Below are positions 48,499-64,000 of a stretch of DNA of 64,000 bases, piece after piece (position 1 is the stretch's first letter; every line of letters begins with the position of its first letter). The notes under the pieces are model-generated. The model did not search any database and was not told the DNA's origin. It saw nothing but the letters and a program-made list of their open reading frames with translations. Position numbers and translations under genes: made by a program. Source of the DNA: Clostridia bacterium (GTDB lineage: Bacteria; Bacillota; Clostridia; Christensenellales; Aristaeellaceae); assembly GCA_017509255.1 (NCBI GenBank), contig JAFWQA010000014.1:1-64000 (forward strand), given 5' to 3'.

Positions 48499-48517
48499 AA
48501 AAGAGAGGAGAAAAACC

Positions 48518-49519: not shown

Positions 49520-49539
49520 ACAAAAGAAGCGTTGAAATC

Positions 49540-49566
49540 GGATCCCCTTCGGGGGATCCTTTTTAT
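49540..49566 (+). terminator. Terminator of buk-pta
   Basis: GGATCCCC (49540-49547) with GGGGATCC (49552-49559), TTCG-type loop, followed by TTTTTATTT. Confidence 0.88.
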
Positions 49567-49844
49567 TTCTCAAAAAACACGTTCCAATAAGCAAATTTTG
49601 TCCCTCTGAAATTACATTTTGTCAGCAGGCTTCCGATCCGCCGTCCTCAGGAGCGGGGCATGATGCGGAAAAAAGGAAAACAGTGTTCTAAAAGATGCTG
49701 CCCGCGGAAAAACGGAGAAAAAGGGTCAGGGTCCACATGAGGATCACGATAGGTTTTTTCTACCGTTCACAGACTCGGAGCCGTCAGCGTCAAGCGGTTG
49801 AGGGAGAAAAGCAAAATTAACACAATTTTTTGCCAAAAAATATA

Positions 49845-50037
49845 TGGACAAGTACATACATTTAGTGTTATAAATAGTAACGTACTGTAATGAATTGTAA
49901 CACGAAAAAAGTTCGTGTTCCAAAACTCATGCAGTATGCACCCGGCATGTATATTATATCTGAGAAAGTTTGGAGCGGACTTCGGGAAACCAGCGGTAAC
50001 CGGGTGCTGCCAGACTTTCTCTCTTTCTTTTTGACAT
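49845..50037 (+). promoter_or_regulatory. Possible distal promoter, hairpins and attenuator upstream of loaP
   Basis: This AT-rich stretch has TGGACA (49845-49850), an 18-bp spacer and TATAAA (49869-49874). It is followed by an 8-bp hairpin (49899-49906 with 49912-49919), a 5-bp hairpin (49928-49932 with 49945-49949) and a 12-bp stem (49962-49973 with 50010-50021) with T-rich TCTTTCTTTTT after it. It could be an attenuated leader of the polysaccharide operon or a small RNA gene. The preceding 49567-49840 shows no gene. Confidence 0.45.
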
Positions 50038-50081
50038 TCATGCATTTTTCGGGTCGTTTACGCAGGATCTGCATGAAATGG

Positions 50082-50110
50082 TTGACCTGATTGACCGTTT
50101 AAGATAAACT
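50082..50110 (+). promoter_or_regulatory. Proximal promoter of the exopolysaccharide operon
   Basis: TTGACC (50082-50087), 17-bp spacer, TAAACT (50105-50110). The 145-nt leader to loaP contains a perfect 8-bp hairpin (CCGATGCC about 50188-50195 with GGCATCGG about 50208-50215), a possible LoaP recognition structure. Confidence 0.55.
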
Positions 50111-50260
50111 CTTGCGGTTTGCGTTTCCTCCGGAGAGGCGCTGTTCCTGTTGGAGTGACGGGCTGAAAGCCGCCGGAAGGATCCCGATGCCGATGAAGCT
50201 GACGGCATCGGATGGCGAAGCTATGCCAAAAAACGAACGGAAGAAGGGAGGGGATCGGTC

Positions 50261-50764
50261 ATGAACGCGTACTGTCTTTTTTGCAGGACGGAGTATGCCG
50301 GGGATATCACCGCGGCGATCCAGGCGTCCGGAGACTACCGGGCGATCTATCCGCAGATCATCCAGCGCAAGTGGGTCCGCGGTACGGCGACGGAGGTCCC
50401 GCATCCCTGCCTGCCCGGTTACGTATTTATTTACAGCGATGAGCCGATCGCGGATTTCAGCCCCCTGCGCCGGCATCTGGGCGTGATCCGCCCGCTGGGG
50501 CAGGAAAACGAGCACTACGAGCTGGCCGGGGATGACCTGAAGTTTGCCCGGGCCGTATACGGAATGGGCGGAACGGTCGGCATCCAGAAGGCCTACCGGG
50601 AGGGAGACGGCATCCGCCTGGCGGACGGCGTCTTTGCCGGCCTCACCGGCCGGATCCTCTGGTTCGACCGCAGAAAGCAGCGGGCGAAGGTGGAGGTCAC
50701 CTTCGACGAGACGGTCTATACGCTCTGGGTCGGCATCGACATGATCGAGAAGCCGGATGAATAA
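50261..50764 (+). CDS. loaP: LoaP-type NusG paralogue (operon antiterminator)
   Basis: 167 aa. Residues 1-100 are a NusG N-terminal domain (YCLFCRTEYAGDITAAIQA; RPLGQENEHYELAGDDLKFARAVYG). Residues 110-160 are a KOW domain (YREGDGIRLADGVFAGLTGRILWFDRRKQRAKVEVTFDETVYTLWVG). LoaP proteins head long polysaccharide or antibiotic operons in Firmicutes and let RNA polymerase read through terminators. Position at the start of a run of more than 13 kb of glycan genes that contains a strong internal terminator fits this role. Confidence 0.87.
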   Translation: MNAYCLFCRTEYAGDITAAIQASGDYRAIYPQIIQRKWVRGTATEVPHPCLPGYVFIYSDEPIADFSPLRRHLGVIRPLGQENEHYELAGDDLKFARAVYGMGGTVGIQKAYREGDGIRLADGVFAGLTGRILWFDRRKQRAKVEVTFDETVYTLWVGIDMIEKPDE

Positions 50765-51806
50765 AGAAAGCATGGAGGTGGGCACCGTGGAGCAAGAGCA
50801 GCTGCGGCGGCGGAAGCGTCCGGGTAAAACGGTGCTGCTTCTGACCGCTGTCGGTATCCTTGTCCTGCTGGCCGGAGGGTATCTGCTGGGCAGCTGGCTG
50901 GAGAACAGCGGCCGCGAGGCGGACAGCCTGGGGGACTACAACGACCGGTTCCGCTACAGCGCGATGCTGAAGCTGGACGGCCAAAGCTACCGGCAGAAGG
51001 GCAGCGTGACCACCCTGCTCCTGATGGGCATCGACCAGGTCTCCGATGAGGAACGCAAAACGCCCTACCGCAGCGGCGGGCAGGCGGACTTCCTCCGGCT
51101 GCTGGTCATTGACCGCACCGAGAAAACCGTGGTCCAGATCCCGATCGACCGCGATACGATCACCCCGATCCGGATCCTGACGGTGCTCGGGGAAGAGGAC
51201 GGCACAAGGGAAGAGCATATCTCCATTTCCCACAGCTTCGGCGACGGGAAGGAGCAGAGCGGCGAGCTGACGCGCAGAGCCGTTTCGGAGCTTTTCCTCG
51301 GCGCGAGGATCGACTTCTGGGTCGCCATGAGCATGGACGGCATTGCCGCCTTCAACGACACGCTGGGCGGCGTCGCGGTCACCCTGGAGGATGACCTGAC
51401 GCAGTTTGACCCGGCGTGGCAGCCCGGCACGACCGTCATCCTGAGCGGCGAGCAGGCTTTCAACTACCTCCACAGCCGTATGTCCGTCGGCGACGGGAGC
51501 AACGCGTCCCGCATGCGCCGCCAGCAGGCCTACATCTCCGAAGCCGCGAAGCTCCTGCAGATCAAGGCCCAGGATGACGCGGACTTCGTGGGCCGGCTGT
51601 TTGACAGCCTGACGCCCTATCTGTCCAGCAATATCGGACGGGCCAACCTCGTCAATCTGGCCCTCCTTTCCAGGGACTTTGACCGCACCCTCCGGGAGAT
51701 CCCCGGCGAGCACGGCAGGGACGCCGACGGCTTCACCGCCTTCTATTATGACAAAGACGCGGTCAGGCAGATGGCGCTGGAGCTGCTTTTCACTCCCATG
51801 GAGTAA
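50757..51806 (+). CDS. LytR-CpsA-Psr (LCP) family protein
   Basis: 349 aa from the ATG at 50757, overlapping loaP by 8 bp; a GTG at 50787 with GGAGGTG in front is an equally good start. One N-terminal membrane helix (TVLLLTAVGILVLLAGGYLLG). The LCP domain at about 80-270 has TLLLMGID, the Arg/Asp-rich core QADFLRLLVIDRTEKTVVQIPIDRDT, and a late NYLHSRMSVGDGSNASRMRRQQAY. LCP enzymes attach polysaccharide from undecaprenyl phosphate to peptidoglycan, so the operon product is probably wall linked. Confidence 0.88.
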   Translation: MNKESMEVGTVEQEQLRRRKRPGKTVLLLTAVGILVLLAGGYLLGSWLENSGREADSLGDYNDRFRYSAMLKLDGQSYRQKGSVTTLLLMGIDQVSDEERKTPYRSGGQADFLRLLVIDRTEKTVVQIPIDRDTITPIRILTVLGEEDGTREEHISISHSFGDGKEQSGELTRRAVSELFLGARIDFWVAMSMDGIAAFNDTLGGVAVTLEDDLTQFDPAWQPGTTVILSGEQAFNYLHSRMSVGDGSNASRMRRQQAYISEAAKLLQIKAQDDADFVGRLFDSLTPYLSSNIGRANLVNLALLSRDFDRTLREIPGEHGRDADGFTAFYYDKDAVRQMALELLFTPME

Positions 51807-51876
51807 CGCCGAAAGGCTTTACCATATCACAGAAAATCAACACGGAAAAAAACCGAAACGAAAGGGGACCCCAACC

Positions 51877-52398
51877 ATGAAAAAGGCCTTATCTCTGTTT
51901 CTGGCCCTGTTCCTTCTGACCCTGAGCTGCTGCGCCTTTGCCGCCGACGGCGAGGACGAGCCCAGCAGGACCGGCGAGGATCTGATCCACACCGAGATCC
52001 TCAATCCCATGAACGATTTCCGGTTCATCATCATTCCCGGAGATCCGGACGCCATGGCTGAGCTGGAAAAGCTGGAAGCCGAGACCGACAGGCTGGCCTT
52101 CTTCGGCCCTGCCCGGGACGCCATCGTGGCCATCACCGGCCCCAACGGCGCCATCAAGGAATTTGCCGGCTGCATCTGCGAGAACTACGAAGAATCTATG
52201 GGTCCCATGACCATCGGAATGACCTTCCCGAAGCCCTTTGAGGAAGGTGCCCGGGTCGCCGTGGTCATCAAGGCGGGCGATGAATGGACCGTTTTCGAAG
52301 CAGGCGGAAGTGCTGCCGGAAGTGTGACTGTAACCTTTGATCCTGCAACCCTGCTGAAAATTCAGGAAGGCGGCGGCATGATCGCCGTGATCGCGTAA
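51877..52398 (+). CDS. Secreted protein of unknown function in the polysaccharide operon
   Basis: 173 aa from the ATG at 51877 (SD AAAGGGGA). Signal peptide with a Cys pair (LLTLSCCAFAADG). The mature part is acidic at first (DGEDEPSRTGEDL), then alternates strands (FRFIIIPGD, AIVAITGPNG, GARVAVVIKAGDEWTVFEAGG, GSVTVTFDPATLL), suggesting a small beta-sandwich. No family is recognised. Its place between the LCP enzyme and the chain-length regulator suggests a role in export or surface retention of the glycan. Confidence 0.6.
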   Translation: MKKALSLFLALFLLTLSCCAFAADGEDEPSRTGEDLIHTEILNPMNDFRFIIIPGDPDAMAELEKLEAETDRLAFFGPARDAIVAITGPNGAIKEFAGCICENYEESMGPMTIGMTFPKPFEEGARVAVVIKAGDEWTVFEAGGSAAGSVTVTFDPATLLKIQEGGGMIAVIA

Positions 52399-52444
52399 CC
52401 CCTCGGCCTCATAATTCCAAGAAAAAAAAGGCACGGAGAGTAAT

Positions 52445-53251
52445 ATGGCGGATAATAAAAACAGGCGCAGCCGGCAGGATGCCGGGCTGCTCCAGAGAAA
52501 CCCGGAAAATCCCGGACAGTCAAAGGCTGCCCAGCAGGATACGATCGACCTGGTAGAGCTTTTCTACCGCCTGCTGGACAGCTGGAAGCTGCTCCTGATC
52601 GCAATGGCCGTCTGCATCCTCGCTCTGCTCGGCTTCAAGGCAGTCAAGCGCGACAAGCCGATGTACCAGGCCAGCTCCACGATCTATGTGATCGGGACGG
52701 ACACGACGCTGAGCCTGGCGGACCTGCAGATCTCCAGCAGCATGATGAACGACTATCTGAAGGTCTTCGACATCTGGGAGGTGCACGACATGGTGCGCCG
52801 AAACCTGGATCTCAAATACAATTACAAGCAGCTGCGGGAGAGCGTGACCGTGGTGAATCCCGCGAGCACGCGCATGCTGGATATCACCGTGTCCTCCGAG
52901 AGTCCGGAGGAGGCGGCGGACATGGCGAACGAATACGCCGTCGTCGTCAGCAATTACATTGCCGATACGATGAAGACGGACAAGCCCAGCATCATGTCCG
53001 TGGCGCTGGTGCCGACCAATCCCTATAACATCCACAACACCCGGGACCTGATCATGGCGGCCGTCGTCGGCCTGCTGATCGGCGCGGCGATCGTCACGGT
53101 CCAGATGATGACGGACGACAAGATCAAGACCGCGGAGGATATCATGCGCTATACCGGCCTGAGCAATCTGGCGATCATCCCGGTGGAGGAAACGCTGGCC
53201 GGCCACAGCATCAAGCCGCAGCATGCCGGAAAGGGGAGGCTGAAGTCATGA
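52445..53251 (+). CDS. cpsC: Polysaccharide chain-length determinant (Wzz/CpsC type)
   Basis: 268 aa. A cytosolic N-terminus is followed by helix 1 at about 40-63 (SWKLLLIAMAVCILALLGF), an extracellular Wzz domain (TIYVIGTDTTLSLADLQISSS...), the proline-rich motif LVPTNPYNIHNTRD just before helix 2 at about 198-218, and a short cytosolic tail (DKIKTAEDIMRYTGL). Membrane activator of the downstream tyrosine kinase; the genes overlap by 4 bp. Confidence 0.88.
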   Translation: MADNKNRRSRQDAGLLQRNPENPGQSKAAQQDTIDLVELFYRLLDSWKLLLIAMAVCILALLGFKAVKRDKPMYQASSTIYVIGTDTTLSLADLQISSSMMNDYLKVFDIWEVHDMVRRNLDLKYNYKQLRESVTVVNPASTRMLDITVSSESPEEAADMANEYAVVVSNYIADTMKTDKPSIMSVALVPTNPYNIHNTRDLIMAAVVGLLIGAAIVTVQMMTDDKIKTAEDIMRYTGLSNLAIIPVEETLAGHSIKPQHAGKGRLKS

Positions 53252-54024
53252 AGAAAGTCGACCTGATGAGATTCGCTCCTCTCGGCTACGCCTGCGCGGA
53301 AGCCATCAATACCCTGTGCACCAACCTGACCTTCACGGGCAGCAACGTCAAGCGCATCATGGTGACCTCCTGCCATGCCTCGGAGGGCAAGAGCATGATC
53401 TCCATGAACATCTTGCGCACTATGGCAGGGCTGGGAAAGAGGGTAGCCCTGCTGGACATGGACCTGCGCCGCAGCCGCCTCCGGGCTGACTACGGCATGG
53501 CCTTCAGCGACTCCAAGCCCCAGGGCATCACCCATTACCTGTCCGGCCAGGCCGCGCTGGAGGATATCATCTACAGCACGCCGATCGCCAACGCGTGCAT
53601 CCTTCCGGTCACCAAAACGGTATCCAACTCCCTGTCCCTTCTCAACTCGGAGAAGACGGAGGAGCTGATCCGCAACCTGGGCGAGGCTTTTGACTACGTC
53701 ATCATCGACGTATCCCCGGTTGGCGCCCTGATCGACGCGGCGCAGATCGCCCGCTACTGCGACGGGACGCTGCTGGTCGTCAACTACAACGAGGTGCGCA
53801 AGAAGGAACTGATCGACGCCAGGAACCAGCTGGACCAGACCGGCTGCCCCATCCTCGGCACCGTGATCAACGAAGCGCGCTTCGACAGCTATCTGAACCG
53901 CAAGTATTACTACAAGTCCTATTATTACAGCCACTACGACAACTACTACGGCAAGGATGAAAAGGGCAGCGCCGATCCCGGTAAGCCCGCCGCTCCCCGC
54001 AAGGGAGCATCGGCCGGGAAATAA
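53248..54024 (+). CDS. cpsD: CpsD/CapB-type tyrosine autokinase
   Basis: 258 aa BY-kinase. Walker A in VTSCHASEGKSMISMN (about 37-50), Walker A' in VALLDMDLRRSRL (about 70) and Walker B in YVIIDVSPVGALID (about 150). The C-terminus has a dense tyrosine cluster (YYYKSYYYSHYDNYYG, about 218-233), the autophosphorylation site. It works with CpsC to set polymer length and export. Confidence 0.92.
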   Translation: MKKVDLMRFAPLGYACAEAINTLCTNLTFTGSNVKRIMVTSCHASEGKSMISMNILRTMAGLGKRVALLDMDLRRSRLRADYGMAFSDSKPQGITHYLSGQAALEDIIYSTPIANACILPVTKTVSNSLSLLNSEKTEELIRNLGEAFDYVIIDVSPVGALIDAAQIARYCDGTLLVVNYNEVRKKELIDARNQLDQTGCPILGTVINEARFDSYLNRKYYYKSYYYSHYDNYYGKDEKGSADPGKPAAPRKGASAGK

Positions 54025-54056
54025 AGCTTCTCAAATAACCGCATACCCGCAGTATT

Positions 54057-54086
54057 CAGATCCCCCGCACCGGGGGATCTGTTTTT
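54057..54086 (+). terminator. Intrinsic terminator inside the polysaccharide operon
   Basis: An 11-bp perfect stem (54057-54067 with 54071-54081, loop CAC) followed by TTTTT. It lies between cpsD and the sugar transferase gene with no new promoter evident. It would cut the operon short without antitermination. Confidence 0.85.
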
Positions 54087-54132
54087 CACGTTTCCAAACC
54101 AGAACGATCCATCATCACGGAGGGGACCGCCA

Positions 54133-55545
54133 GTGTCTAACGTCAGAACCAAGAATCCGATTTCGCTCAGGAATCTCAAGCTGCTGAATCTCGTCGTCAT
54201 GTCGGCGATTTTCTGGCTGCTCTGGACGCGCTGCGGCGCGAGCCGGCTGTATGAGGGGGAATTCATCAGCTTCCGGAACATCGCCTTCCTGGCGGCTTTC
54301 GTGCTCCTGTATTTCGCTTTTTCGCGGATATACAACGCATTCTCGGTCGTCTACTGCAGTGTCCGGGAACTGATCCTGAGCCAGTTTCTGACAGCCCTTT
54401 TCGCCAACTCGATCATCTTCCTGGTGACCGCCGTGATCTTCGGCACGCTGGATCACATCCTGCCGTTCTTTATCACGCTCTGCTGCCAGACGGCATTCGC
54501 CGTCATCTGGTGCTGCGGGACGCACGCTCTGTACTTCAAGTATACCAAATCCGGCGATACCTATATCATCTACGATATGCAGGAAGGCATGGAAAACACC
54601 CTGAACGAGCACGGCCTGGACAAGCGCTATAAGGTCGTCGGCACCTGCACCGCGCAGGAATGCCTGGAAAAGAACATGTCCATGCTGACCGGGAATGTGC
54701 ACACCGTCTTCTTCAGCGGGGTCCACAGCCATGACCGGAACATCATCCTGAAGTACTGCATCGAAAATCATATCTCCTGCTTCATTATTCCGCGGGTCGG
54801 CGATCTGCTGATGAGCAGCGCCCTGACCATGAACATCATGCATCTGCCGATGCTGTACGTCAGCCGCTATACGCCGAATCCGGAATACGTCATCATCAAG
54901 CGGGCCTTTGACATCTTCGCTTCCGCCGTCGGCCTCATCCTCGCTTCCCCGTTCATGGCGGTCATCGCCCTGGCCGTCCGCTCGGACGGCGGTCCGGCCA
55001 TCTACCGGCAGACCCGCCTGACCAAGGACGGAAAGGAATTCCAGATCATGAAATTCCGTTCCATGCGGACGGACGCGGAAAAGGACGGCGTAGCCAGGCT
55101 TTCCACCGGTGACAACGACGACCGCGTCACCAAGGTCGGCCGGATCATCCGCATGCTCCGCCTGGACGAGCTGCCCCAGCTGATCAACGTATTCCGGGGC
55201 GACATGAGCCTCGTCGGTCCACGCCCGGAACGCCCTGAGATCGCCGCGCAGTATGAAGCAGAAATGCCCGAGTTCCGGCTCCGCCTGCAGGCCAAGGCCG
55301 GCATCACCGGCTACGCCCAGGTCTACGGCCAGTACAACACAACCCCCTATCACAAGCTCCAGCTGGACCTGATGTACATCGCCCATCCCAGCCTTCTGCA
55401 GGACCTGAAGATCCTCTTCGCTACCGTCAAGATCATCTTCATGAAGGACAGTACAGAAGGTGTAGCCGAAGGGCAGACGACGGCGTTGGACTACCAAAAT
55501 GCAGCAGATAGAACGGGAAAATACGCTGAAACGGTTTCTAAATAG
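54133..55545 (+). CDS. Priming glycosyl-1-phosphate transferase for exopolysaccharide
   Basis: 470 aa from the GTG at 54133 (SD GGAGGGG). Residues 1-140 hold about five helices, 140-260 a CoA-binding-like soluble domain, and 265-450 the bacterial sugar transferase domain: KRAFDIFASAVGLILASPFMAVI, GPAIYRQTRLTKDGKEFQIMKFRSM, LRLDELPQLINVFRGDMSLVGPRPERP. It moves a sugar-1-phosphate to undecaprenyl phosphate to begin the repeat unit. It is the last gene with host-like base composition. Confidence 0.92.
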   Translation: MSNVRTKNPISLRNLKLLNLVVMSAIFWLLWTRCGASRLYEGEFISFRNIAFLAAFVLLYFAFSRIYNAFSVVYCSVRELILSQFLTALFANSIIFLVTAVIFGTLDHILPFFITLCCQTAFAVIWCCGTHALYFKYTKSGDTYIIYDMQEGMENTLNEHGLDKRYKVVGTCTAQECLEKNMSMLTGNVHTVFFSGVHSHDRNIILKYCIENHISCFIIPRVGDLLMSSALTMNIMHLPMLYVSRYTPNPEYVIIKRAFDIFASAVGLILASPFMAVIALAVRSDGGPAIYRQTRLTKDGKEFQIMKFRSMRTDAEKDGVARLSTGDNDDRVTKVGRIIRMLRLDELPQLINVFRGDMSLVGPRPERPEIAAQYEAEMPEFRLRLQAKAGITGYAQVYGQYNTTPYHKLQLDLMYIAHPSLLQDLKILFATVKIIFMKDSTEGVAEGQTTALDYQNAADRTGKYAETVSK

Positions 55546-55593
55546 GACAAATTGAACAAAAATCTGACTCTTTGAGCGAAGTGGTTGGAATGT

Positions 55594-55754
55594 CTGCCCT
55601 CGGTACTCTGCTTATAGAAGAGGGCAGGACTATGTATCAAATACATTCCGGGTCGACGATATATGCTATGTGCCTTCGATAGTTTCCTTATAGAAGAGGC
55701 GGGTAAAAAATGCCGCCGATAGTTTCAGAATAGAACAGACACATTAAGGCGGCA
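55594..55754 (+). repeat. Three hairpins sharing a conserved loop word
   Basis: Three stem-loops follow one another: 55594-55601/55620-55627, 55672-55677/55693-55700 and 55711-55717/55748-55754. The stems differ, yet loops 1 and 2 share TTATAGAA and loops 2 and 3 both begin GATAGTTTC. Degenerate ATAGRA words also lie at 55508 and 55542 at the end of the preceding gene. Conserved loops with changed stems suggest structured RNA or old mobile-element ends. Confidence 0.45.
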
Positions 55755-55764
55755 GCCACAGGAA

Positions 55765-56005
55765 CTCATTTCACTTTGATTCGGTTCGGACTGACCGGTC
55801 GGGATGGTGAGGAACAGAGTTTCGAGGTTAAGCCGGTGTCACCGGAGGGCGGAGCTATAAGCACAGGTCGAAAGACCAGGTGATTGAGATAGGCTGGAGC
55901 TGGTTCATATGTTGGCCAGTAGAAAAGGTAGAAATGCTGAGAGGCTCCGGGGTTTGTTTTGACCTCAGAGCATTTCGCTATGTTTTGGGGAGTTTTGCTC
56001 CCGTT
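55765..56005 (+). ncRNA. Putative structured RNA of unknown class
   Basis: No gene fits this stretch but it is dense in hairpins: 55782-55785/55794-55797; 55833-55837/55841-55845; GGTC-GAAA-GACC at 55866-55877 (GNRA loop); a long arm 55931-55938/55969-55976 continued by 55941-55944/55963-55966 across a tandem GA/AG internal loop; and 55988-55992/55998-56002. A second pairing (55825-55831 with 55960-55966) competes with the long arm. It ends about 35 bases before the next start codon. Confidence 0.45.
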
Positions 56006-56038
56006 CAATTCTGAAGAATAAAACAGGGAGCTGTAGCT

Positions 56039-57157
56039 GTGAAGAAACTTAAAGTGATGATTTTAGCCAATGATACGACATATACATACAACCTCCGTAA
56101 TGAGATTATCGAGCGCCTTGCATCAGATGGACATGAAGTTGTTGTCGCATCCCAGCCCCTACTCCTTCAGGAAGAGTTGAAGAGTCTGGGATGTAGACTT
56201 GTAAATATAGAAACAAATCGTCATGGAACAAACCCACTTTCAGACCTCGGATTACTTATGAAGTTCAGGATGGTGTTGTCGGAAGAGAGACCAGATGTGG
56301 CTCTGACATATAACATCAAGCCGAATGCTTATGGCGGGATCGCTTGCCGGATGACAAAGACGCATTATATCCCCAATATCACCGGTCTAGGTACTGCAGT
56401 TGAGTATCCAGGTTTAATGCAGAAGATTTCTACGAAGCTATATAAGGCTGGTGTGGCTGGAGCGGACTGTATTATGTTCCAGAACGATGAAAACAAACAG
56501 TTCTTTATCGATCACCACATGATGCCTAAGAAGGCAAGAACTCGGCTTCTTCCCGGTTCTGGAGTGAGCCTCAAGGTCCATAAGGCGATGGAGTATCCAG
56601 TGGACACAGGCGTGATCAACTTCCTCTTCATTGCCCGTGTAATGGCTGAAAAGGGTATTGATCTGCTCCTTGGAGCCGCGAAGAGGATATATGAGAAACA
56701 CAAGAATGTCATGTTCCATATTTGTGGCCAGTGTGATGATGAGAAGTATATCGGTCTTCTAAAAGAAGCCGAGAAGAGCGGATATATCAATTATCACGGT
56801 GAGCAGAAAGATATGGTCCCGTTCTTCGAGATGGCACACTGCATTGTGCATCCTAGTTACTACCCGGAAGGCATGAGCAATGTGCTGTTGGAAGCAGCAG
56901 CGCATTGCAGACCCATCATAGCCACAGATCGTGCTGGGTGCCGCGAAACGGTTGATGAAGGTAAGAGCGGATACATCATCCCCATAAAAAATCAGGATGC
57001 ATTATATGATGCATTGGAAAGATTCCTGGCAATGACTTGGGAACAACGACGCAATATGGGATTGGCTGGAAGAGCAAAGGTTGAACATGAATTTGATCGA
57101 CAATTAGTTGTAAATGCATATATGGAAGAAATAGCGAGGTGTATAAAGCATGATTAA
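56039..57157 (+). CDS. Glycosyltransferase family 4 protein
   Basis: 372 aa from the GTG at 56039 (SD CAGGGAG). GT-B fold: the N-half starts KVMILANDTTYTYNLRNEIIERL and carries YNIKPNAYGGIACRMTKTHYIPNITGLG, as in PglA/WbpX-like acceptor domains. The C-half has LFIARVMAEKGIDLLL, VHPSYYPEGMSNVLLEAAAHCRPIIATDRAGCRE (donor-binding E-x7-E, about 285-315). It adds one sugar to the lipid-linked unit. Base composition is visibly AT-richer than upstream genes. It overlaps the next gene by 8 bp. Confidence 0.88.
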   Translation: MKKLKVMILANDTTYTYNLRNEIIERLASDGHEVVVASQPLLLQEELKSLGCRLVNIETNRHGTNPLSDLGLLMKFRMVLSEERPDVALTYNIKPNAYGGIACRMTKTHYIPNITGLGTAVEYPGLMQKISTKLYKAGVAGADCIMFQNDENKQFFIDHHMMPKKARTRLLPGSGVSLKVHKAMEYPVDTGVINFLFIARVMAEKGIDLLLGAAKRIYEKHKNVMFHICGQCDDEKYIGLLKEAEKSGYINYHGEQKDMVPFFEMAHCIVHPSYYPEGMSNVLLEAAAHCRPIIATDRAGCRETVDEGKSGYIIPIKNQDALYDALERFLAMTWEQRRNMGLAGRAKVEHEFDRQLVVNAYMEEIARCIKHD

Positions 57158-57881
57158 ATATTCGATGCAACAAATCAGAGAATCCTTACCAAAGGAAAAA
57201 AATAAGGGCGATTCTTTATGGGTTCAGTATGTGGCAAGAAATATTTCTTACCCATTCACTTTCCTCTTTATAAATATTGGACTATCAGCATGGCAAGTGT
57301 CAGTCTTATCTATTTTGGTGGCATTTATGGCGTGCTTTGCTTTCTGCATTAATAATGATGTTGTCAGATGGGTAGGTGTTATTCTGATTCATTTCTGGAT
57401 GATTTGCGATTGTGTTGACGGTAATATTGCAAGGGTCAAGAAGACAACTGGACCAATGGGTGAATTCATCGATGCGCAAAGCGGATATATAATAAGTGCT
57501 TTCTGCTACTTTGGATTAGGGGTTGCTGCTTTCTATACAACAAGGTTTTCACAGTACTCGACATTGCTACTTACGTTAGGGAGTATAGCGTCTATCGCAA
57601 ATATTCTCTCGAGACTAATTCATCAAAAGTATACAGTTGCACAGATAAATTCTAATGGCGGTAAGAATGAGGTGCAAATAGAAGAAAAAGACAGTTCTAG
57701 TTTTCAAAGCCTTAGACGACGGATAGGTAAGGAAATAGGACTGTCAGGGATGTTCATGATACTGGTGGTTTTGTGCCAAATATTCAAAATATATGATTAT
57801 GTCACAGTGTTTTATTTTCTTTTCTGTATGGTGAGCTTACTAGTTGTAATCGCTAGATATAGTATAAAAGCAAAAGTATAG
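57150..57881 (+). CDS. CDP-alcohol phosphotransferase-family membrane protein, variant active site
   Basis: 243 aa with about six helices. The family motif DxxDGxxARxxxxxxxxGxxxDxxxD is present except at its end: DCVDGNIARVKKTTGPMG then EFIDAQSG (about residues 90-115), where the last Asp is Gly. The family moves a phospho-group from a CDP-linked donor to an alcohol. Beside PEP-mutase genes it is the natural candidate to transfer a CMP-activated phosphonate to lipid or sugar. The altered last Asp (the usual base) could mean a changed mechanism or loss of activity. Confidence 0.78.
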   Translation: MIKYSMQQIRESLPKEKNKGDSLWVQYVARNISYPFTFLFINIGLSAWQVSVLSILVAFMACFAFCINNDVVRWVGVILIHFWMICDCVDGNIARVKKTTGPMGEFIDAQSGYIISAFCYFGLGVAAFYTTRFSQYSTLLLTLGSIASIANILSRLIHQKYTVAQINSNGGKNEVQIEEKDSSSFQSLRRRIGKEIGLSGMFMILVVLCQIFKIYDYVTVFYFLFCMVSLLVVIARYSIKAKV

Positions 57882-57917
57882 TTGATTTAACCTGGCTTGG
57901 TAAGAAAGGAATAACAA

Positions 57918-59927
57918 ATGAAAGCACTAATTCTTAATTCTGGCCTCGGCTCCCGGATGGGAGTCCTCACCTCAGAGCACCCTAAATGCATGACGGAGAT
58001 CAGCTCGAATGAAACGATCTTTTCTCGTCAGCTGAAGCAGATTGCCGAGGCAGGGATTGAGGAAGTTGTAATCACTACTGGATACTATGACGGCGTTCTG
58101 GTAAATTACTGCAATTCGCTCGACTTGCCGCTGCATTATACCTTTGTGAAGAATCCTATCTACGACAAAACCAACTACATTTATTCCATCTACTGTGCAA
58201 GAGAATACTTGGAAGATGACATTATTCTCATGCATGGGGACTTGGTCTTCGAGAATGAGGTCTTTGATCGTGTAATTGCTTCTTCTGTTTCCTGCATGAC
58301 CGTTTCCTCCACGCTGTCGCTTCCTGAGAAGGATTTCAAAGCGGTTGTTCACGACGGCATGGTCATGAAAGTCGGTGTCGAGTTCTTCAACGACGCGATG
58401 GAAGCACAGGCTCTCTATAAACTGAACAAAGAAGACTGGATGGTATGGCTGAATAAGATCATCGAGTTCTGTGAGACTGAAAAGACGAAGGTCTACGCTG
58501 AGAATGCTCTGAACGAGCTGAACGGTACGGCCAATATTCATGCTCTAGATGTTGAAAATCTTCTCTGCTCAGAGATCGACAACCCTGAGGATCTGGCTGT
58601 TGTAATATCGAAGTTGAAGGAGATCCAGTCTCGTACAGTTTACATGTGCTTCGCTTCCGATATTATTCATGGCGGTCATATTGCCATCATCAAAAAGGCA
58701 CAGAAGCTTGGAAAGCTGATCATTGGCGTGTTGTCTGATGAAGCTGTTGCCTCCTATAAGCGTATGCCCTTGGTCCCGGCATCTGAGCGGAAGGTTATGT
58801 TTGAGAACATTGCCGGTGTGTATAAAGTTGTTGACCAGAACACATTGAGCTACAAGGAAAACCTGGAGAAGTATAAACCTTCCATCGTTGTTCACGGTGA
58901 CGACTGGGTGTCCGGATTCCAGCGTCTAATCCGCGATGAAGTGACGGCGATTCTTGCCTCTTACGGCGGAAAACTCGTAGAGTATCCATATTCAACTGAT
59001 CCGAAGTATGCTGAAATTGATGCCAGGACTCGCTCTGATCTTGCCATGCCTGATATCCGTCGTGGACGCCTTAAAAGAATGCTGGATGCAAAGGGCCTTG
59101 TGACGGTCATGGAAGCACATGATGGCCTCACTGGTTTGATCGTTGAGAATACTGTAGTTCACCAGGATGGCGGCGCTCACCAGTTTGATGCTATGTGGAT
59201 CAGCTCTTTGTGTGATTCCACTGCCAAGGGCAAGCCGGACATCGAGCTTGTGGATATGACCAGCCGTTTTCGTACGATAGAGGACATTACTGAAGTCACG
59301 ACAAAGCCTATCATCTTTGACGGTGATACCGGAGGAAAGACTGAGCACTTTGTATATACCGTCCGGAGCTTGGAGCGGTTGGGAGTCAGCATGGTCATCA
59401 TCGAGGACAAGACTGGTCTCAAGAAGAACAGTCTGTTCGGAACCGAAGTTGTCCAGACTCAGGATAACATTGAGAACTTCAGCGCGAAGATTCGTGCTGG
59501 TAAGAAGGCGCAGCGTACCAAGGAGTTCATGATCTGCGCGAGAATCGAGAGCCTCATCCTCGAACAGGGTATGGAAGATGCGCTGACACGTGCTTTTGCT
59601 TTTGTGGAAGCCGGTGCCGATGCTATCATGATCCACAGCCGGAAGAAAGACCCCTCCGAGATTCAGGAGTTCATTGAGAAGTTCCGGGTGAAGGATAAGG
59701 CCACACCCATTGTTCTCGTTCCCACGTCTTTCAATTCTGTAACTGAGGAGGAGTGGAAAGAACGCGGTGCTAACATCATTATCTACGCAAATCAGCTCAT
59801 GAGAGCGGAAGTTCCCGCAATGCAGAAGGCAGCTGAGATGATTCTGGAAAACCACAGAGCTGAAGAGTGCGATGCGATGCTGATGCCGTTCAAAGACATC
59901 ATCCGTTTGATCCCGGCAGAGGGCTAA
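57918..59927 (+). CDS. pepM: Three-domain nucleotidyltransferase-cytidylyltransferase-PEP mutase
   Basis: 669 aa. Residues 1-225 are an NTP-transferase (LILNSGLGSRMGVLTSEHPK) like PntC/LicC cytidylyltransferases. Residues 235-365 are a second, HxGH-type cytidylyltransferase (FASDIIHGGHIAIIKKAQ; VPASERKVMFENI), like the first domain of Fom1. Residues 385-669 are phosphoenolpyruvate mutase with FDGDTGG and the signature EDKTGLKKNSLFG (about 495). PEP mutase makes phosphonopyruvate. The other domains would activate a phosphonate as its CMP ester. Downstream genes supply the intermediate steps. Confidence 0.9.
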   Translation: MKALILNSGLGSRMGVLTSEHPKCMTEISSNETIFSRQLKQIAEAGIEEVVITTGYYDGVLVNYCNSLDLPLHYTFVKNPIYDKTNYIYSIYCAREYLEDDIILMHGDLVFENEVFDRVIASSVSCMTVSSTLSLPEKDFKAVVHDGMVMKVGVEFFNDAMEAQALYKLNKEDWMVWLNKIIEFCETEKTKVYAENALNELNGTANIHALDVENLLCSEIDNPEDLAVVISKLKEIQSRTVYMCFASDIIHGGHIAIIKKAQKLGKLIIGVLSDEAVASYKRMPLVPASERKVMFENIAGVYKVVDQNTLSYKENLEKYKPSIVVHGDDWVSGFQRLIRDEVTAILASYGGKLVEYPYSTDPKYAEIDARTRSDLAMPDIRRGRLKRMLDAKGLVTVMEAHDGLTGLIVENTVVHQDGGAHQFDAMWISSLCDSTAKGKPDIELVDMTSRFRTIEDITEVTTKPIIFDGDTGGKTEHFVYTVRSLERLGVSMVIIEDKTGLKKNSLFGTEVVQTQDNIENFSAKIRAGKKAQRTKEFMICARIESLILEQGMEDALTRAFAFVEAGADAIMIHSRKKDPSEIQEFIEKFRVKDKATPIVLVPTSFNSVTEEEWKERGANIIIYANQLMRAEVPAMQKAAEMILENHRAEECDAMLMPFKDIIRLIPAEG

Positions 59928-59930
59928 AAA

Positions 59931-61061
59931 ATGGAACAGAGGATAATAACAGCAAGTGATAATTACATAGGGTTTGATCAGTGGATTCAAGAGAATGGAT
60001 GCAAGAAAATCCTGATGGTTTGTGATGGCTCCATTTGGCACATGGACGGATTTAATAAGCATCTGGAAGAAGTTGAGAAAACGGAGGTCGAGATGATCGG
60101 TTTCCGTGACTTCCAGTCGAATCCGTTATATGAATCAGTCGTAAAAGGTGTTGAGCTTTTCAGAGAGGAAAAATGCGATAGTATCATGGCCGTCGGCGGC
60201 GGCTCTGCGATGGATGTTGCGAAATGCATAAAGTTGTATTCGGGTTGCTCTGGAGATGGCGCAGAAGGCTCTTGGCTGAACGCAGAAATCGTCCCGAACA
60301 GTATCCCGTTCATAGCGATGCCCACAACGGCAGGAACTGGAAGCGAGGCTACCCGCTATGCAGTCATTTACCATAATGATGCTAAGCAGAGCATCACTAG
60401 CGAGAGCATTATACCTGGTATTGTTTTGATGGACCCTAATGCACTTAAAACGCTCCCGTTATATCAGAAGAAAGCAACTATGATGGACGCCTTGTGCCAT
60501 GCCATCGAGTCTTTCTGGTCGGTGAACAGTACAGATCAAAGCAAGGAGTATAGCAGAGCGGCAATTCAAGCTGTGTTGAAGCATATGAATGGTTATCTTG
60601 CAAACACCGAGGATGGTAACGCTGGAATGCTCAAAGCTGCACACACTGCCGGGCAGGCCATTAACATCACCCAAACAACAGCTGGCCATGCCATGTGCTA
60701 TAAGATCACAAGCCTTTTTAGATCAGCCCATGGGCATGCTGCTATCCTTTGTGACCGTGTGCTCTTCCCCTGGATGGTTGAGAACACTGATAAGTGTATT
60801 GATCCAAGGGGTGAGGAGTATCTAAGGGCTACGCTTGATGAGATCGGACATGCTATGGGTTGTGAGGATGCGAAGGCAGGAGCTGACAAGCTGAAAAGTA
60901 TCTTTGATGAACTCGGTCTCGAAGTCCCGACCGCCTCAGCAGAGCAATTTGAGATCTTGAAAAACTCTGTCAACCCGGTCAGATTGAAGAATCATCCTAT
61001 AGCCTTGGACGTCGATACGATAGACTCTCTCTACCATACTATTCTGAACGGAGAATCATAA
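59931..61061 (+). CDS. Iron-type alcohol dehydrogenase, probable phosphonoacetaldehyde reductase
   Basis: 376 aa, starting 4 bp after pepM. Group III (Fe-ADH) family: SIMAVGGGSAMDVAKCIKLY (NAD(P)-binding, about 85-105), PTTAGTGSEATRYAVI (about 130) and metal ligands in MDALCHAIESFWSVN (about 195) and FRSAHGHAAILCDRVL (about 265). Similar enzymes (PhpC-like) reduce phosphonoacetaldehyde to 2-hydroxyethylphosphonate. No AEP transaminase is seen, so hydroxyethylphosphonate is the likely product. It overlaps the next start by one base. Confidence 0.85.
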   Translation: MEQRIITASDNYIGFDQWIQENGCKKILMVCDGSIWHMDGFNKHLEEVEKTEVEMIGFRDFQSNPLYESVVKGVELFREEKCDSIMAVGGGSAMDVAKCIKLYSGCSGDGAEGSWLNAEIVPNSIPFIAMPTTAGTGSEATRYAVIYHNDAKQSITSESIIPGIVLMDPNALKTLPLYQKKATMMDALCHAIESFWSVNSTDQSKEYSRAAIQAVLKHMNGYLANTEDGNAGMLKAAHTAGQAINITQTTAGHAMCYKITSLFRSAHGHAAILCDRVLFPWMVENTDKCIDPRGEEYLRATLDEIGHAMGCEDAKAGADKLKSIFDELGLEVPTASAEQFEILKNSVNPVRLKNHPIALDVDTIDSLYHTILNGES

Positions 61062-62194
61062 TGAAGGTTGAAAAGTTAGTAGAGATCATTGGCTCTGATT
61101 TTTATACCGGAGTGCCTGACAGCCAGCTGAAAGCTCTTTGCAACTATCTGATGGCTACCTACGGTATTGATCCTCATCATCATGTGATTGCTGCAAACGA
61201 AGGCAACTGCACAGCCTTGGCGGCCGGATATCACCTGGCAACTGGCAAGATTCCCGTGGTTTACATGCAGAACAGCGGCGAGGGTAATATCATCAACCCA
61301 GTGGCAAGCCTGCTCAACGATAAGGTTTATGCAATCCCCATCATTTTCGTCGTCGGTTGGCGTGGCGAACCCGGAATCCATGATGAACCTCAGCATATTT
61401 ACCAAGGCGAAGTAACCGTAAAACTGCTAGAGGATATGGATATTAAGCCTTTTGTCATTGGCAAAGATACGACTGATGATGAAGTGATGACAGTGATGAA
61501 AGAGTTCAGAAATGTTCTCGCTACTGGTAAAGATGTCGCGTTTGTAATCCGCAAGGGCGCTCTGACCGATGCTCCAAAGGTGGAATATAAGAACGACAAT
61601 CACATGATCCGTGAAGAGATTATCAAACATATTGTCAAGGCCAGTGGCGAAGATCCGATTGTCAGCACTACGGGGAAAGCTAGCCGTGAGTTGTTTGAGA
61701 CTCGTGCGGCCAACGGTCAGAGCCACAAGTACGATTTCCTGACCGTCGGGTCCATGGGCCATAGCAGTTCTATCGCTTTAGGCATCGCTATCAACAAGCC
61801 GGAACAGCGCATTTGGTGCGTGGACGGTGACGGTGCCGTTCTTATGCATATGGGTTCTATGGCGGTATTGGGAAGCAATAAGCCAAAGAATTTAGTCCAC
61901 GTTGTTATCAACAATGGCGCACATGAGACCGTTGGTGGTATGCCTACGGTTGCAGCGGATATTGACCTCGTTGGTGTAGCAAAAGCGTGCGGATATCCAT
62001 ATGCAGTATCTGTTGACTGCTTTGAGAAGCTGGATAAGGAACTTGAAGCAGCAAAAGAGCGCGGAGAACTGAGCTTGATCGAAGTGAAGTGCTCTATCGG
62101 CGCGCGTGAGGATCTTGGGAGGCCAACCACAACTGCTCTTGAAAACAAACAATATTTTATGGAGTATTTGAAGACCCTATCACGAGAAAAGTAA
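61061..62194 (+). CDS. ppd: Phosphonopyruvate decarboxylase
   Basis: 377 aa. Thiamine-diphosphate enzyme with the shortened Ppd architecture: the N-half has FYTGVPDSQLKALCNYL and NEGNCTALAAGYHLATGKIPVVYMQNSGEGN (catalytic Glu about 45). The C-half has the Mg-ThDP motif WCVDGDGAVLMHMGSMAVLG ending in VVINNGAHETVGG (about 245-290). It turns phosphonopyruvate into phosphonoacetaldehyde and so drives the unfavourable PEP mutase step forward. Confidence 0.92.
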   Translation: MKVEKLVEIIGSDFYTGVPDSQLKALCNYLMATYGIDPHHHVIAANEGNCTALAAGYHLATGKIPVVYMQNSGEGNIINPVASLLNDKVYAIPIIFVVGWRGEPGIHDEPQHIYQGEVTVKLLEDMDIKPFVIGKDTTDDEVMTVMKEFRNVLATGKDVAFVIRKGALTDAPKVEYKNDNHMIREEIIKHIVKASGEDPIVSTTGKASRELFETRAANGQSHKYDFLTVGSMGHSSSIALGIAINKPEQRIWCVDGDGAVLMHMGSMAVLGSNKPKNLVHVVINNGAHETVGGMPTVAADIDLVGVAKACGYPYAVSVDCFEKLDKELEAAKERGELSLIEVKCSIGAREDLGRPTTTALENKQYFMEYLKTLSREK

Positions 62195-62383
62195 CACTGC
62201 AATAAAAAATCTTTTCGTACTTATCGGCAATAGCATATAGCAGTATTTATAAGGAATTTCATATACTGTTTCTATGATATACTGCCCTTCATGTTTATAC
62301 TAAAGGATGCCTTTTTTCTGTATAGATAACCTTGGAGTCGTGATGATTATTTTGTCTTCGTTCAAACAAAAGGAGTATTATTG

Positions 62384-63520
62384 ATGGAATCTAGAGCCAG
62401 GATGATAAGGATTCTTATGGTGCTAGGAAATACAGGACGTGGCGGTGCGCAGGCATATGCAATGAATGTTCTACGGAGTATTGACAGATCACGATTTCAT
62501 ATTGATTTTGTTGTAAACTATATCTATGAAAATGGATATACTGATGAGATACGTGAAAACGGAAGTACGATACATGTCATTCCAAAGTTTAAAGGGACGA
62601 ATTATTTTGCATATGTACGAGCTTTTAATAAAGTTCTTGATGCAGGAAATTATGATATCATTCACGGTCACGTCAGTAGTTCAGCCTCTATATATTTAAG
62701 AATCGCTAAAGAGCATCATTGCATAACAATTGCTCACAGTCATAGCGCAGGATATAGAGGGAATGGGATAGAGCAGCAGATAAAAAGAGTATTTACTTTT
62801 GGAGCAAAAAAACAGGCTGATTATTGGTTTGGGTGTTCCCGTCTTGCTGCAGAGCGAATGTTTGGTCGCAATTACAAGTCTAATCCTAAGTATCATGATA
62901 TTCCGAATGCTATTATAGTAGATAGATACAGATATAATGAGGAGATTAGAGCGAGAATTAGAGAACAGTATGGCATCTCGAATGATGCGATAGTCTATGG
63001 GCATGTAGGTTCATTCTCTGCTCCTAAAAATCATAGGTTTTTAATAGAGGTTTTTAAGAAAATCTATAGCGATCAAAGAGAAAAAGCATGCTTTATATTA
63101 GTGGGAGATGGATTGCTAAAAGATAATATTCGAAAAATGGTCATGCAAAATGGACTATCAGATCGAGTCATTTTTACTGGAAATGTTGACAACGTAAATG
63201 AGTTTCTTATGGCTATGGATGTACTCGTTTTCCCGTCACTTTTTGAGGGCTTTCCTGTTACATTACTTGAAGCACAAGCTGCTGGGCTTCCTTGCATTTC
63301 ATCTGATACAATTACTTCAGAGGTAAATATAACAGAAAATGTTATGCCTACATCTTTAAGCGCAGGGGCTGATTATTGGGCAAAAAAGGGTGAAGTGATT
63401 GAAAAGAGAGATCGTACAGTTGCAAATGATATTATTGCGGACTCTGTTTATAATGTAAACAAAAGCATCAGTTTACTTATGGAACTGTATAAAAAAATGG
63501 TTACAAATCACAGTAATTGA
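62384..63520 (+). CDS. Glycosyltransferase family 1/4 protein (EpsF-like)
   Basis: 378 aa from the ATG at 62384 (SD AAAGGAG; a TTG three bases earlier is in frame). GT-B fold: ILMVLGNTGRGGAQAYAMNVLRSIDRSRFHIDFV, HGHVSSSASIYLRIAKEHHCITIAHSHS, then GSFSAPKNHRFLIEVF, ILVGDG and FPSLFEGFPVTLLEAQAAGLPCISSD. The similarity to EpsF-type transferases of capsule clusters is clear. It is the most AT-rich gene in the window. The 189-bp gap before it is AT-rich with possible -10 words but no clear promoter. Confidence 0.87.
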   Translation: MESRARMIRILMVLGNTGRGGAQAYAMNVLRSIDRSRFHIDFVVNYIYENGYTDEIRENGSTIHVIPKFKGTNYFAYVRAFNKVLDAGNYDIIHGHVSSSASIYLRIAKEHHCITIAHSHSAGYRGNGIEQQIKRVFTFGAKKQADYWFGCSRLAAERMFGRNYKSNPKYHDIPNAIIVDRYRYNEEIRARIREQYGISNDAIVYGHVGSFSAPKNHRFLIEVFKKIYSDQREKACFILVGDGLLKDNIRKMVMQNGLSDRVIFTGNVDNVNEFLMAMDVLVFPSLFEGFPVTLLEAQAAGLPCISSDTITSEVNITENVMPTSLSAGADYWAKKGEVIEKRDRTVANDIIADSVYNVNKSISLLMELYKKMVTNHSN

Positions 63521-63541
63521 TATGAACTATGGAGGAAGACT

Positions 63542-64000
63542 TTGAGTAATTATTTGTTTCGCTTGGATGACGCTTCAGACTATATGGATATAGAGAAGTG
63601 GAATAGAATAGAGAGCATACTCGATCAATATGGGATAAAGCCGATATTTGGAATTATCCCTCAAAACGCAGATGAGACTTTGGTTTCCAAATATGCACGT
63701 AACGAAGATTTTTGGAGCCTTATGCATAGTTGGATCGATAAAGGATGGACTCCCGCTATGCATGGCTATGAGCATCGATATGTAACTGAAGAGGGAGGAA
63801 TTAATCCTGTTAACAAAAGGTCTGAATTTGCAGGGCTGTCATATGAAATCCAGGCGGAGAAGATAAGAAAAGGCTATACGATCCTTGAAAAGAATGGTAT
63901 TCATCCAACTATTTTCTTCGCTCCTTCGCATACATTTGATGAGAATACATTGAAGGCATTAAAAAATCATACAACTATAAGAATAATAAGTGATACGATT
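63542..64000 (+). CDS. Polysaccharide deacetylase/DUF2334-like protein, N-terminal part
   Basis: Open from the TTG at 63542 (GGAGG six bases upstream) to the window edge, 153 codons. It starts LSNYLFRLDDASDYMDIEKW; the DD near residue 10 and the later HGYEHRYV (about 78) and FFAPSHTFDENTL (about 128) match the metal-binding Asp, HxxxH and P-containing motif of the NodB/DUF2334 carbohydrate-esterase fold. It would remove acetyl groups from the glycan made by this operon. It is 22 bp after the glycosyltransferase. Confidence 0.72.
   Translation, partial: MSNYLFRLDDASDYMDIEKWNRIESILDQYGIKPIFGIIPQNADETLVSKYARNEDFWSLMHSWIDKGWTPAMHGYEHRYVTEEGGINPVNKRSEFAGLSYEIQAEKIRKGYTILEKNGIHPTIFFAPSHTFDENTLKALKNHTTIRIISDTI

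Follow-up and report, generated by a model that had tools for sequence, protein, structure and literature searches.

A candidate hydroxyethylphosphonate-tailoring module in a capsule locus of a Clostridia bacterium

Introduction

In a 64,000-nt stretch of DNA from a Clostridia bacterium of the Aristaeellaceae (assembly GCA_017509255.1, contig JAFWQA010000014.1, positions 1 to 64,000; the whole stretch is called the window hereafter), four adjacent genes at 57150-62194 are proposed to synthesize 2-hydroxyethylphosphonate (HEP), to activate it as its cytidine monophosphate (CMP) ester and to attach it to a capsule glycan or lipid. To this reading, a HEP-decorated cell surface, a rough probability of 0.65 is assigned from sequence comparison. 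The four genes most likely form a phosphonate-tailoring module within a probable Wzx/Wzy-type capsule (exopolysaccharide, EPS) locus.

In the proposed pathway, a phosphoenolpyruvate (PEP) mutase would form phosphonopyruvate, a decarboxylase would drive its conversion to phosphonoacetaldehyde, and an iron-type (Fe-) dehydrogenase would reduce this aldehyde to HEP. A PF12804 domain fused to the mutase would most likely then use cytidine triphosphate (CTP) to produce CMP-HEP, while a second, Fom1-like domain may do the same job or assist. Finally, a small membrane protein would most likely shift HEP from CMP-HEP onto a hydroxyl group of a lipid-linked glycan repeat or of a membrane lipid, and the decorated unit would be flipped, polymerised and displayed. 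We infer the substrates, the direction of the reduction, the transfer and the acceptor.

The cassette and the probable synthesis of HEP

All four open reading frames (ORFs) lie on the forward strand, with spacings of 36 nt, 3 nt and a 1-nt overlap. The first (57150-57881, 243 aa) encodes a CDP-alcohol-phosphotransferase-like membrane protein, which exceeds the Pfam cut-off of CDP-OH_P_transf (PF01066; 33.7 bits vs 22) and is the candidate HEP transferase. It is followed by a triple fusion (57918-59927), in which PEP_mutase (187.8 bits), CTP_transf_like (54.7 bits) and NTP_transf_3 (40.4 bits) are all matched on one chain of 669 aa. Its LicC/PntC-like N-terminal PF12804 nucleotidyltransferase domain (aa 1-236, 57918-58625) is the candidate HEP cytidylyltransferase; a Fom1-like cytidylyltransferase (CyTase) domain (about aa 237-369, 58626-59024) and the PEP mutase domain (about aa 383-669, 59064-59924) follow, the latter with EDKTGLKKNS at 496-505 and 399.4 bits against the NCBIfam model TIGR02320 (cut-off 319.55). 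The last gene (61061-62194) encodes a thiamine pyrophosphate (TPP)-dependent protein of 377 aa that passes the phosphonopyruvate decarboxylase model TIGR03297 (460.8 bits vs 312.5) and also matches the N and C TPP_enzyme families of Pfam. An earlier sequence-only reading had placed these gene identities at these positions, and ORF coordinates and Pfam and NCBIfam scores agree with it on both counts; its fusion of two cytidylyltransferase-type domains to the mutase is likewise confirmed by the three-domain Pfam match and by a match of the middle domain to PDB 5x3d.

The third gene (59931-61061) encodes an iron-type alcohol dehydrogenase (PF00465, 128.4 bits) containing D186, H190, H253 and H267, which we take to be the metal-ligand residues of this family. 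In an alignment of 85 sequences of at least 250 bits, the window protein included, D186, H253 and H267 occur in all 85 and H190 in 77. The score against the PsrA model TIGR03405 is 127.9 bits, for a cut-off of 423.7; as no listed NCBIfam equivalog reaches its cut-off for either the dehydrogenase or the CDP-alcohol protein, both are assigned by Pfam only. The dehydrogenase is a putative phosphonoacetaldehyde reductase, with substrate and direction of reduction predicted from its family and context.

A scan of genome contigs gave 398 pattern matches, of which 382 are stretches encoding relatives, and the cassette is therefore not a chance arrangement. The best 80 of these 382, together with loci from the window's class, make up 93 rows of triple fusions (90 distinct), alongside 21 distinct double fusions from Clostridia. 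In what follows, L, G and C numbers designate loci, genomes and contigs. An Fe-dehydrogenase lies within 8 kb of 80 of the 90 distinct triple fusions and a decarboxylase near 75, and fusion, dehydrogenase and decarboxylase occur together repeatedly in otherwise differing neighbourhoods. HEP synthesis by mutase, decarboxylase and Fe-reductase, as the sequence-only reading had it, is thus well supported by families, conserved catalytic residues and comparative genomics, and formation of HEP is considered very probable.

At E<=1e-30, 33 of the 391 genomes surveyed in the class of the window contain a match, as do, at E<=1e-50, 50 of 301 genomes of the family of a Prevotella metagenome-assembled genome (MAG), L072; each count includes the reference genome itself and pools triple and double fusions with stand-alone domains. 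The search of viral contigs gave a pattern match in one stretch but no relative. In a plasmid collection 142 records match, and only that of S. copri covers at least 80% of the query; in this S. copri DSM 18205 operon, the dehydrogenase is annotated in the collection as 'phosphonoacetaldehyde reductase'. Plasmids of about 8.7 kb from the beetle symbiont Candidatus Stammera capleta (CP144779, CP144776, CP144789) encode a PEP-mutase-like domain of 39-40% identity. A variant cassette is seen at L045 (12031-15263), where the genes after the triple fusion encode a short-chain dehydrogenase, another PF12804 nucleotidyltransferase and a transketolase-N-like protein; no Fe-dehydrogenase was found there, and the product is perhaps a different phosphonate.

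Probable activation to CMP-HEP

Production of CMP-HEP is considered likely, with a confidence close to that for HEP itself. The N-terminal domain of the window fusion carries the motifs G9xGSR...PK23, TNYIYS, H106-G-D108 and E219-I-D221. Its GLGSR...PK agrees with the PntC consensus GxG(T/S)R...PK, whose G9, G11, R13, P22 and K23 are found in 93/93 rows; the GxGxR...PK, HGD and ExD motifs are likewise kept in every row, as is EDKxxxxxNS of the mutase, which also occurs in 21/21 double fusions. In Tde-PntC, Glu104 and Glu196 lie near the amine of 2-aminoethylphosphonate (AEP) (PMC6697681). In the alignment, the Glu196 column is Glu in all 93 fusion rows, and the Glu104 column is His in all 93 (His106 in the window).

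The same His is present in 6/6 separate genes scoring above 100 bits against the domain, and five of these loci (L133, L136, L147, L148, L149) have an Fe-dehydrogenase match of at least 70 bits nearby; at the sixth, L135, none was found within its 8.3-kb contig. By comparison, all seven PF12804 genes that neighbour Clostridia double fusions accompanied by an aminotransferase encode Glu here. Within the family of L072 taken with S. copri, His occurs in 15/15 distinct triple fusions (L160 duplicates L159, and L161 is identical with L072, which the 93 rows already include), and in the L072 family Glu occurs in 6/6 PF12804 genes readable beside double fusions. The N-terminal domain is therefore described as PntC-like, but is not classed as an AEP PntC given His106 in place of Glu. 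On the tree of PF12804 domains, the triple fusions of Bacteroidales are scattered, their common ancestor spanning 105 tips, which is consistent with transfer between phyla. At L134 (G058:C7), left out of the 93 rows, an ORF matches both nucleotidyltransferase domains only (query 1-377) and no PEP mutase domain was recognised; this locus has an Fe-dehydrogenase match nearby and His at the Glu104 column, and a double fusion is encoded elsewhere in the same genome.

The middle domain matches PDB 5x3d (E 4.1e-35; 49% identity over the aligned stretch; HGGH at 251-254), which we take to be the CyTase domain of Fom1 with bound HEP-CMP. The Fom1 CyTase makes CMP-HEP (PMC6697681). In the window the catalytic motifs of both nucleotidyltransferase domains are intact, and HxGH is preserved in 92/93 triple rows and 21/21 Clostridia double fusions. 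The strongest alternative assigns CMP-HEP synthesis to the Fom1-like domain, while the PF12804 domain would activate something else; the Fom1 precedent, the near-complete conservation of HxGH and two loci (L192 and L137, discussed below) that pair an Fe-dehydrogenase-type gene with this domain speak in its favor. However, the domain is no less Fom1-like in fusions linked to AEP (median identity 0.52 vs 0.49 in triple fusions) and is present in both AEP- and HEP-type loci, whereas it is the PF12804 subfamily that follows the Fe-dehydrogenase (HEP) branch. Moreover, HxGH is lost in the triple fusions of L072 and S. copri DSM 18205 (L159), both of which keep the PF12804 motifs and do not group on the PF12804-domain tree. 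This alternative is rated as unlikely, and the PF12804 domain as main maker of CMP-HEP at slightly better than even.

The double fusions of the L072 family extend the picture. There are 37, of which 16 with a locus were read and 21 are without one. Thirteen of the 16 (L177-L185, L187-L190) have HPGL in place of HxGH. In the larger flanks of eight of these 13 loci, a Glu-type PF12804 gene is present in 8/8 and an aminotransferase in seven; none was seen on the 4.8-kb contig of L198, an HPGL double fusion. The HPGL domain is probably dead but retained, loss of activity being deduced from the HxGH changes. Given the loss of HxGH in two unconnected triple fusions and in 13/16 double fusions, the Fom1-like domain would not always be needed. 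The earlier proposal that the two domains make the CMP ester therefore holds for CMP-HEP activation as such, which is well supported, but the domains are not simply interchangeable. A search for specificity positions within the Fom1-like domain was discarded as an argument in either direction: triple and AEP-linked fusions differ at 14 positions, and Fom1 sides with the triple fusions at three, with the AEP group at four and with neither at seven. Positions 255 and 256, right after HxGH, split one each way between the triple and AEP sides.

Proposed transfer to an acceptor

Characterised members of the LicD, TagF-type and CDP-alcohol transferase families take CDP-linked donors. Enzymes of these kinds, the LicD and TagF-type ones called by phmmer similarity to representatives placed by Pfam, lie near 42 of the 90 distinct triple fusions: LicD near 29, TagF-type near 14 and the window type near two (the window and L007). 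Directly upstream of the fusion, the figures are 16, seven and two, with none of the three in 65 cases.

The membrane protein of the window has the motif D87xxD90G91xxA94R95...G104xxxD108xxx, followed by G112 at the position of the fourth aspartate (D4), and gives a weak PDB match to 4o6m (E 0.0025). The window protein and its relatives at L007, L087, L088, L089, L193 and L206 all keep D1, D2 and D3, and D4 is Gly or Ser in 7/7; in the window's genome, the two further CDP-alcohol transferase genes encode Asp at this position. The subfamily is rare, occurring in 3/391 genomes of the class (E<=1e-15) and 2/398 of the phylum (E<=1e-20), with the window genome in both counts.

Among the relatives, a TagD-like cytidylyltransferase gene adjoins the transferase at L088 and L089 and stands one gene off at L087; near the D4-less transferase of L193 no TagD-like gene was seen. 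In an EPS cluster of the L. plantarum SN35N plasmid pSN35N-3 (L206), an annotated tagD overlaps a D4-less transferase with 31% identity to the window protein. Immediately after the transferase gene of the window and of L007 comes the triple fusion, in place of the TagD-like gene, so that the cassette occupies the place expected for donor synthesis. This is read as a switch of the transferase donor from a CDP-glycerol-like compound to CMP-HEP. In G016, a triple fusion and a D4-less transferase share one contig about 11 kb apart, and the transferase has its own TagD-like gene beside it. The L206 transferase offers a tractable relative for the study of the D4-less subfamily.

CDP-alcohol phosphotransferases act on membrane lipids. 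A membrane lipid could thus be the acceptor, giving a phosphonolipid, with the window protein acting like a phospholipid head-group transferase; its best NCBIfam matches, both below cut-off, are archaetidylinositol-phosphate and PI-phosphate synthases. Against this, glycosyltransferase genes surround the relatives of the transferase, with a cytidylyltransferase adjacent or close by, and LicD or TagF-type transferases occur near other cassettes. A lipid acceptor in place of a polysaccharide is accordingly regarded as clearly unlikely. That the membrane protein is the HEP transferase is held with modest confidence. The earlier claim that a CDP-alcohol transferase-like protein hands HEP to an acceptor stands as to the family match, whereas D4 is absent and the transfer and the acceptor are predictions.

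Points against the reading and the AEP alternative

Several observations weigh against a HEP-decorated surface made in this way. With Gly at D4, the membrane protein departs from the four-aspartate signature D1xxD2GxxAR...GxxxD3xxxD4. D4 of PgsA1 is a metal ligand and suggested catalytic base (PMC6506517), and for lack of this residue the protein is named CDP-alcohol-phosphotransferase-like only. Furthermore, 48 of the 90 distinct triple fusions are without a LicD, TagF-type or window-type transferase within 8 kb, and ten are without an Fe-dehydrogenase nearby, some of them at contig ends just past the fusion (L014, L072). At L013 an aminotransferase-V gene comes directly after the fusion, without an Fe-dehydrogenase in the stretch examined, and L054, L063, L065 and L130 hold both enzymes; an aminotransferase-V match lies within 4 kb of seven of the 90. 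As to activation, L192 has an Fe-dehydrogenase and an intact Fom1-like double fusion, and no PntC-like gene was recognised in 14 kb; L137 resembles it, with a weaker dehydrogenase match (89-bit Fe-ADH) and again no PntC-like gene recognised. Set against the loci with a degenerate HxGH, these two suggest that either domain may serve in some organisms.

The residue association is also qualified. Glu is found at the Glu104 column in L138, L140, L145 and L194, where neither the aminotransferase nor the Fe-dehydrogenase was recognised, so that Glu alone is no proof of AEP. With an AEP-linked sequence chosen as root of the tree, the His-type domains form one clade (114/114, support 0.84); the association may therefore reflect one event instead of many independent ones. 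Co-occurrence counts as proof of substrate for the His/Glu switch were dropped for these two reasons.

The decoration could alternatively be AEP, with a transaminase encoded elsewhere and the Fe-dehydrogenase serving another role. AEP is the typical surface phosphonate according to PMC6697681, and the five loci with an aminotransferase named above (L013, L054, L063, L065, L130) fit such a product. However, the four cassette genes include no aminotransferase (no search for an AEP transaminase was made in the remainder of the genome), an Fe-dehydrogenase accompanies most triple fusions, and the amine-contact column has His for Glu. An AEP decoration is thus considered improbable. The 21 Clostridia double fusions are mixed, with an Fe-dehydrogenase match only in six, an aminotransferase only in seven, both in one (L130) and neither in seven. 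At L130, a triple fusion with its Fe-dehydrogenase adjoins a double fusion with an aminotransferase, and the locus may make both HEP and AEP.

Capsule neighbourhood and host genome

The cassette stands, as the sequence-only reading had described, among glycosyltransferases and an LCP gene. On the forward strand upstream are an LCP-family protein and possible glycopolymer ligase (50757-51806; PF03816, 60.6 bits vs 24.6), a Wzz-type chain-length protein (52445-53251; 31.8 bits) with a CpsD-like AAA_31 protein (53248-54024; 39.8 bits) that position and family suggest to be a tyrosine kinase, and an initiating polyprenyl glycosylphosphotransferase (54133-55545; PF02397, 213.1 bits; TIGR03025, 320.4 vs 295.55). 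GT4 glycosyltransferases (PF00534) flank the cassette directly upstream (56039-57157; 105.1 bits) and downstream (62381-63520; 92.4 bits), also on the forward strand. The capsule locus extends beyond the window end, where the contig encodes a GT4 protein, a hexapeptide transferase, a Wzy_C-like polymerase candidate (26.3 bits, below the cut-off of 31.7), a pyruvyltransferase and a PF01943 flippase (68.2 bits, above cut-off).

This setting bears on a further alternative, that the product of the operon is a small phosphonate that diffuses away, resembling fosfomycin or some other derivative, instead of a surface decoration. The Fom1-like domain architecture is common to fosfomycin biosynthesis (PMC6697681). 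Yet the neighbours are glycosyltransferases, a flippase, a Wzy_C-like protein and an LCP protein, and triple fusions are repeatedly near LicD or TagF-type genes; moreover, no Fom3/FomD/Fom4-like family was detected in the 20 proteins scanned with Pfam and/or NCBIfam between 50261 and about 74100, several other ORFs there being unscanned. A diffusible product is therefore regarded as quite improbable. Least credible of all is a teichoic-acid-like poly-HEP, which TagF-type enzymes of relatives would build from the hydroxyl-bearing HEP, since single decorations fit the polymerase and flippase context of the S. copri operon better.

For the surface decoration preferred here, the earlier prediction of a wall-linked polysaccharide relies on the LCP homologue about 5 kb upstream (TIGR00350, 47.3 bits, under the cut-off of 62.3), which does not set a wall-linked form apart from capsule or lipid-linked ones. 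Wall attachment through LCP is doubtful.

The GC content drops from 0.617 (window 1-54000) to 0.365 in the transferase gene and 0.47-0.48 in the three other cassette genes, and the cassette is therefore probably an acquired island. A second triple-fusion cassette of the same genome (contig C27; L084 14842-19291) contains a fusion 76% identical to that of the window, with an adjoining Fe-dehydrogenase and a decarboxylase on the opposite strand; the fusion gene has a GC content of 0.555, and a further decarboxylase-like TPP enzyme, 42% identical, is encoded at L084 7642-8772. The 493-nt intergenic region at 55546-56038, which separates the initiating transferase from the first GT4 gene, has a predicted fold more stable than its shuffles (z -2.80, 0/100 as good), and positions 50261-50764 encode a LoaP-like antiterminator homologue (69 bits, under the cut-off of 125); an Rfam search of window positions 49000-64000 gave no match at the gathering threshold. 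Farther upstream (47374-49519), tandem acetokinase-family and phosphate acetyl/butyryl transferase genes are suggestive of a butyrate kinase route.

Relation to known systems

The Stackebrandtia phosphonoglycan, on which Yu et al. reportedly found HEP in 2014, is likewise a surface glycan bearing a phosphonate, but from an actinomycete host. Of the 1485 Ppm proteins surveyed by Rice et al. (2019, PMC6697681), 42 were triple fusions (PF12804+PF01467+Ppm), and the authors suggested a tailoring route with CMP-activated phosphonates. Neither these fusions nor CMP activation nor the tailoring of surfaces with phosphonates is therefore new. The Pnt pathways described there share with the window a PEP mutase, a decarboxylase, CMP activation and a surface glycan context. 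They differ in that the two PntCs characterised act on AEP, whereas the window fusion is partnered by an Fe-dehydrogenase and has His where Tde-PntC has Glu104. Fom1, a CyTase-PEP mutase fusion, resembles the middle and C-terminal domains of the window fusion in order and similarity, with HEP as presumed substrate, but the window fusion has an extra N-terminal PF12804 domain and a capsule context, and no fosfomycin tailoring family appeared in the 20 neighbours scanned. The CDP-alcohol phosphotransferases PgsA1, AF2299 and PIPS share D1xxD2GxxAR...GxxxD3 with the window protein, whose subfamily differs at D4. The pSN35N-3 pair of L. plantarum contains the same D4-less subfamily adjoining its presumed donor synthase, although the donor is presumably CDP-glycerol instead of CMP-HEP.

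As far as the literature search shows, three elements are new: the association of His/Glu with HEP/AEP, the separate decay of the Fom1-like domain, and a D4-less transferase with exchange of its partner. This search, covering titles and abstract openings with most subscription papers outside it, returned no description of the His/Glu switch or of a CDP-alcohol transferase for phosphonates, and the term 'CDP-alcohol' was not found in the main text of PMC6697681. That all three would hold jointly, with an N-terminal domain specific for HEP (TNYIYS...HGDLV) in which His for Glu104 may tell HEP from AEP, a partly or wholly dispensable Fom1-like domain and a D4-less transferase re-paired with a CMP-phosphonate donor, is put at a little under even odds.

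Outlook

These results touch on why most PEP mutases carry nucleotidyltransferase domains, on the role of the double set and on the enzyme that hands the phosphonate to the glycan, the later Pnt steps being called enigmatic in PMC6697681. From the comparison come a single residue with possible predictive value for HEP or AEP, and three kinds of candidate transferase encoded close to one and the same conserved cassette. It also provides natural variants with just one intact-looking activator, namely S. copri DSM 18205, with its degenerate Fom1-like motif, and L192, with no PF12804 gene recognised. If the proposed reading is true, capsules with HEP would be widespread among the Clostridia and Bacteroidales of rumen and gut.

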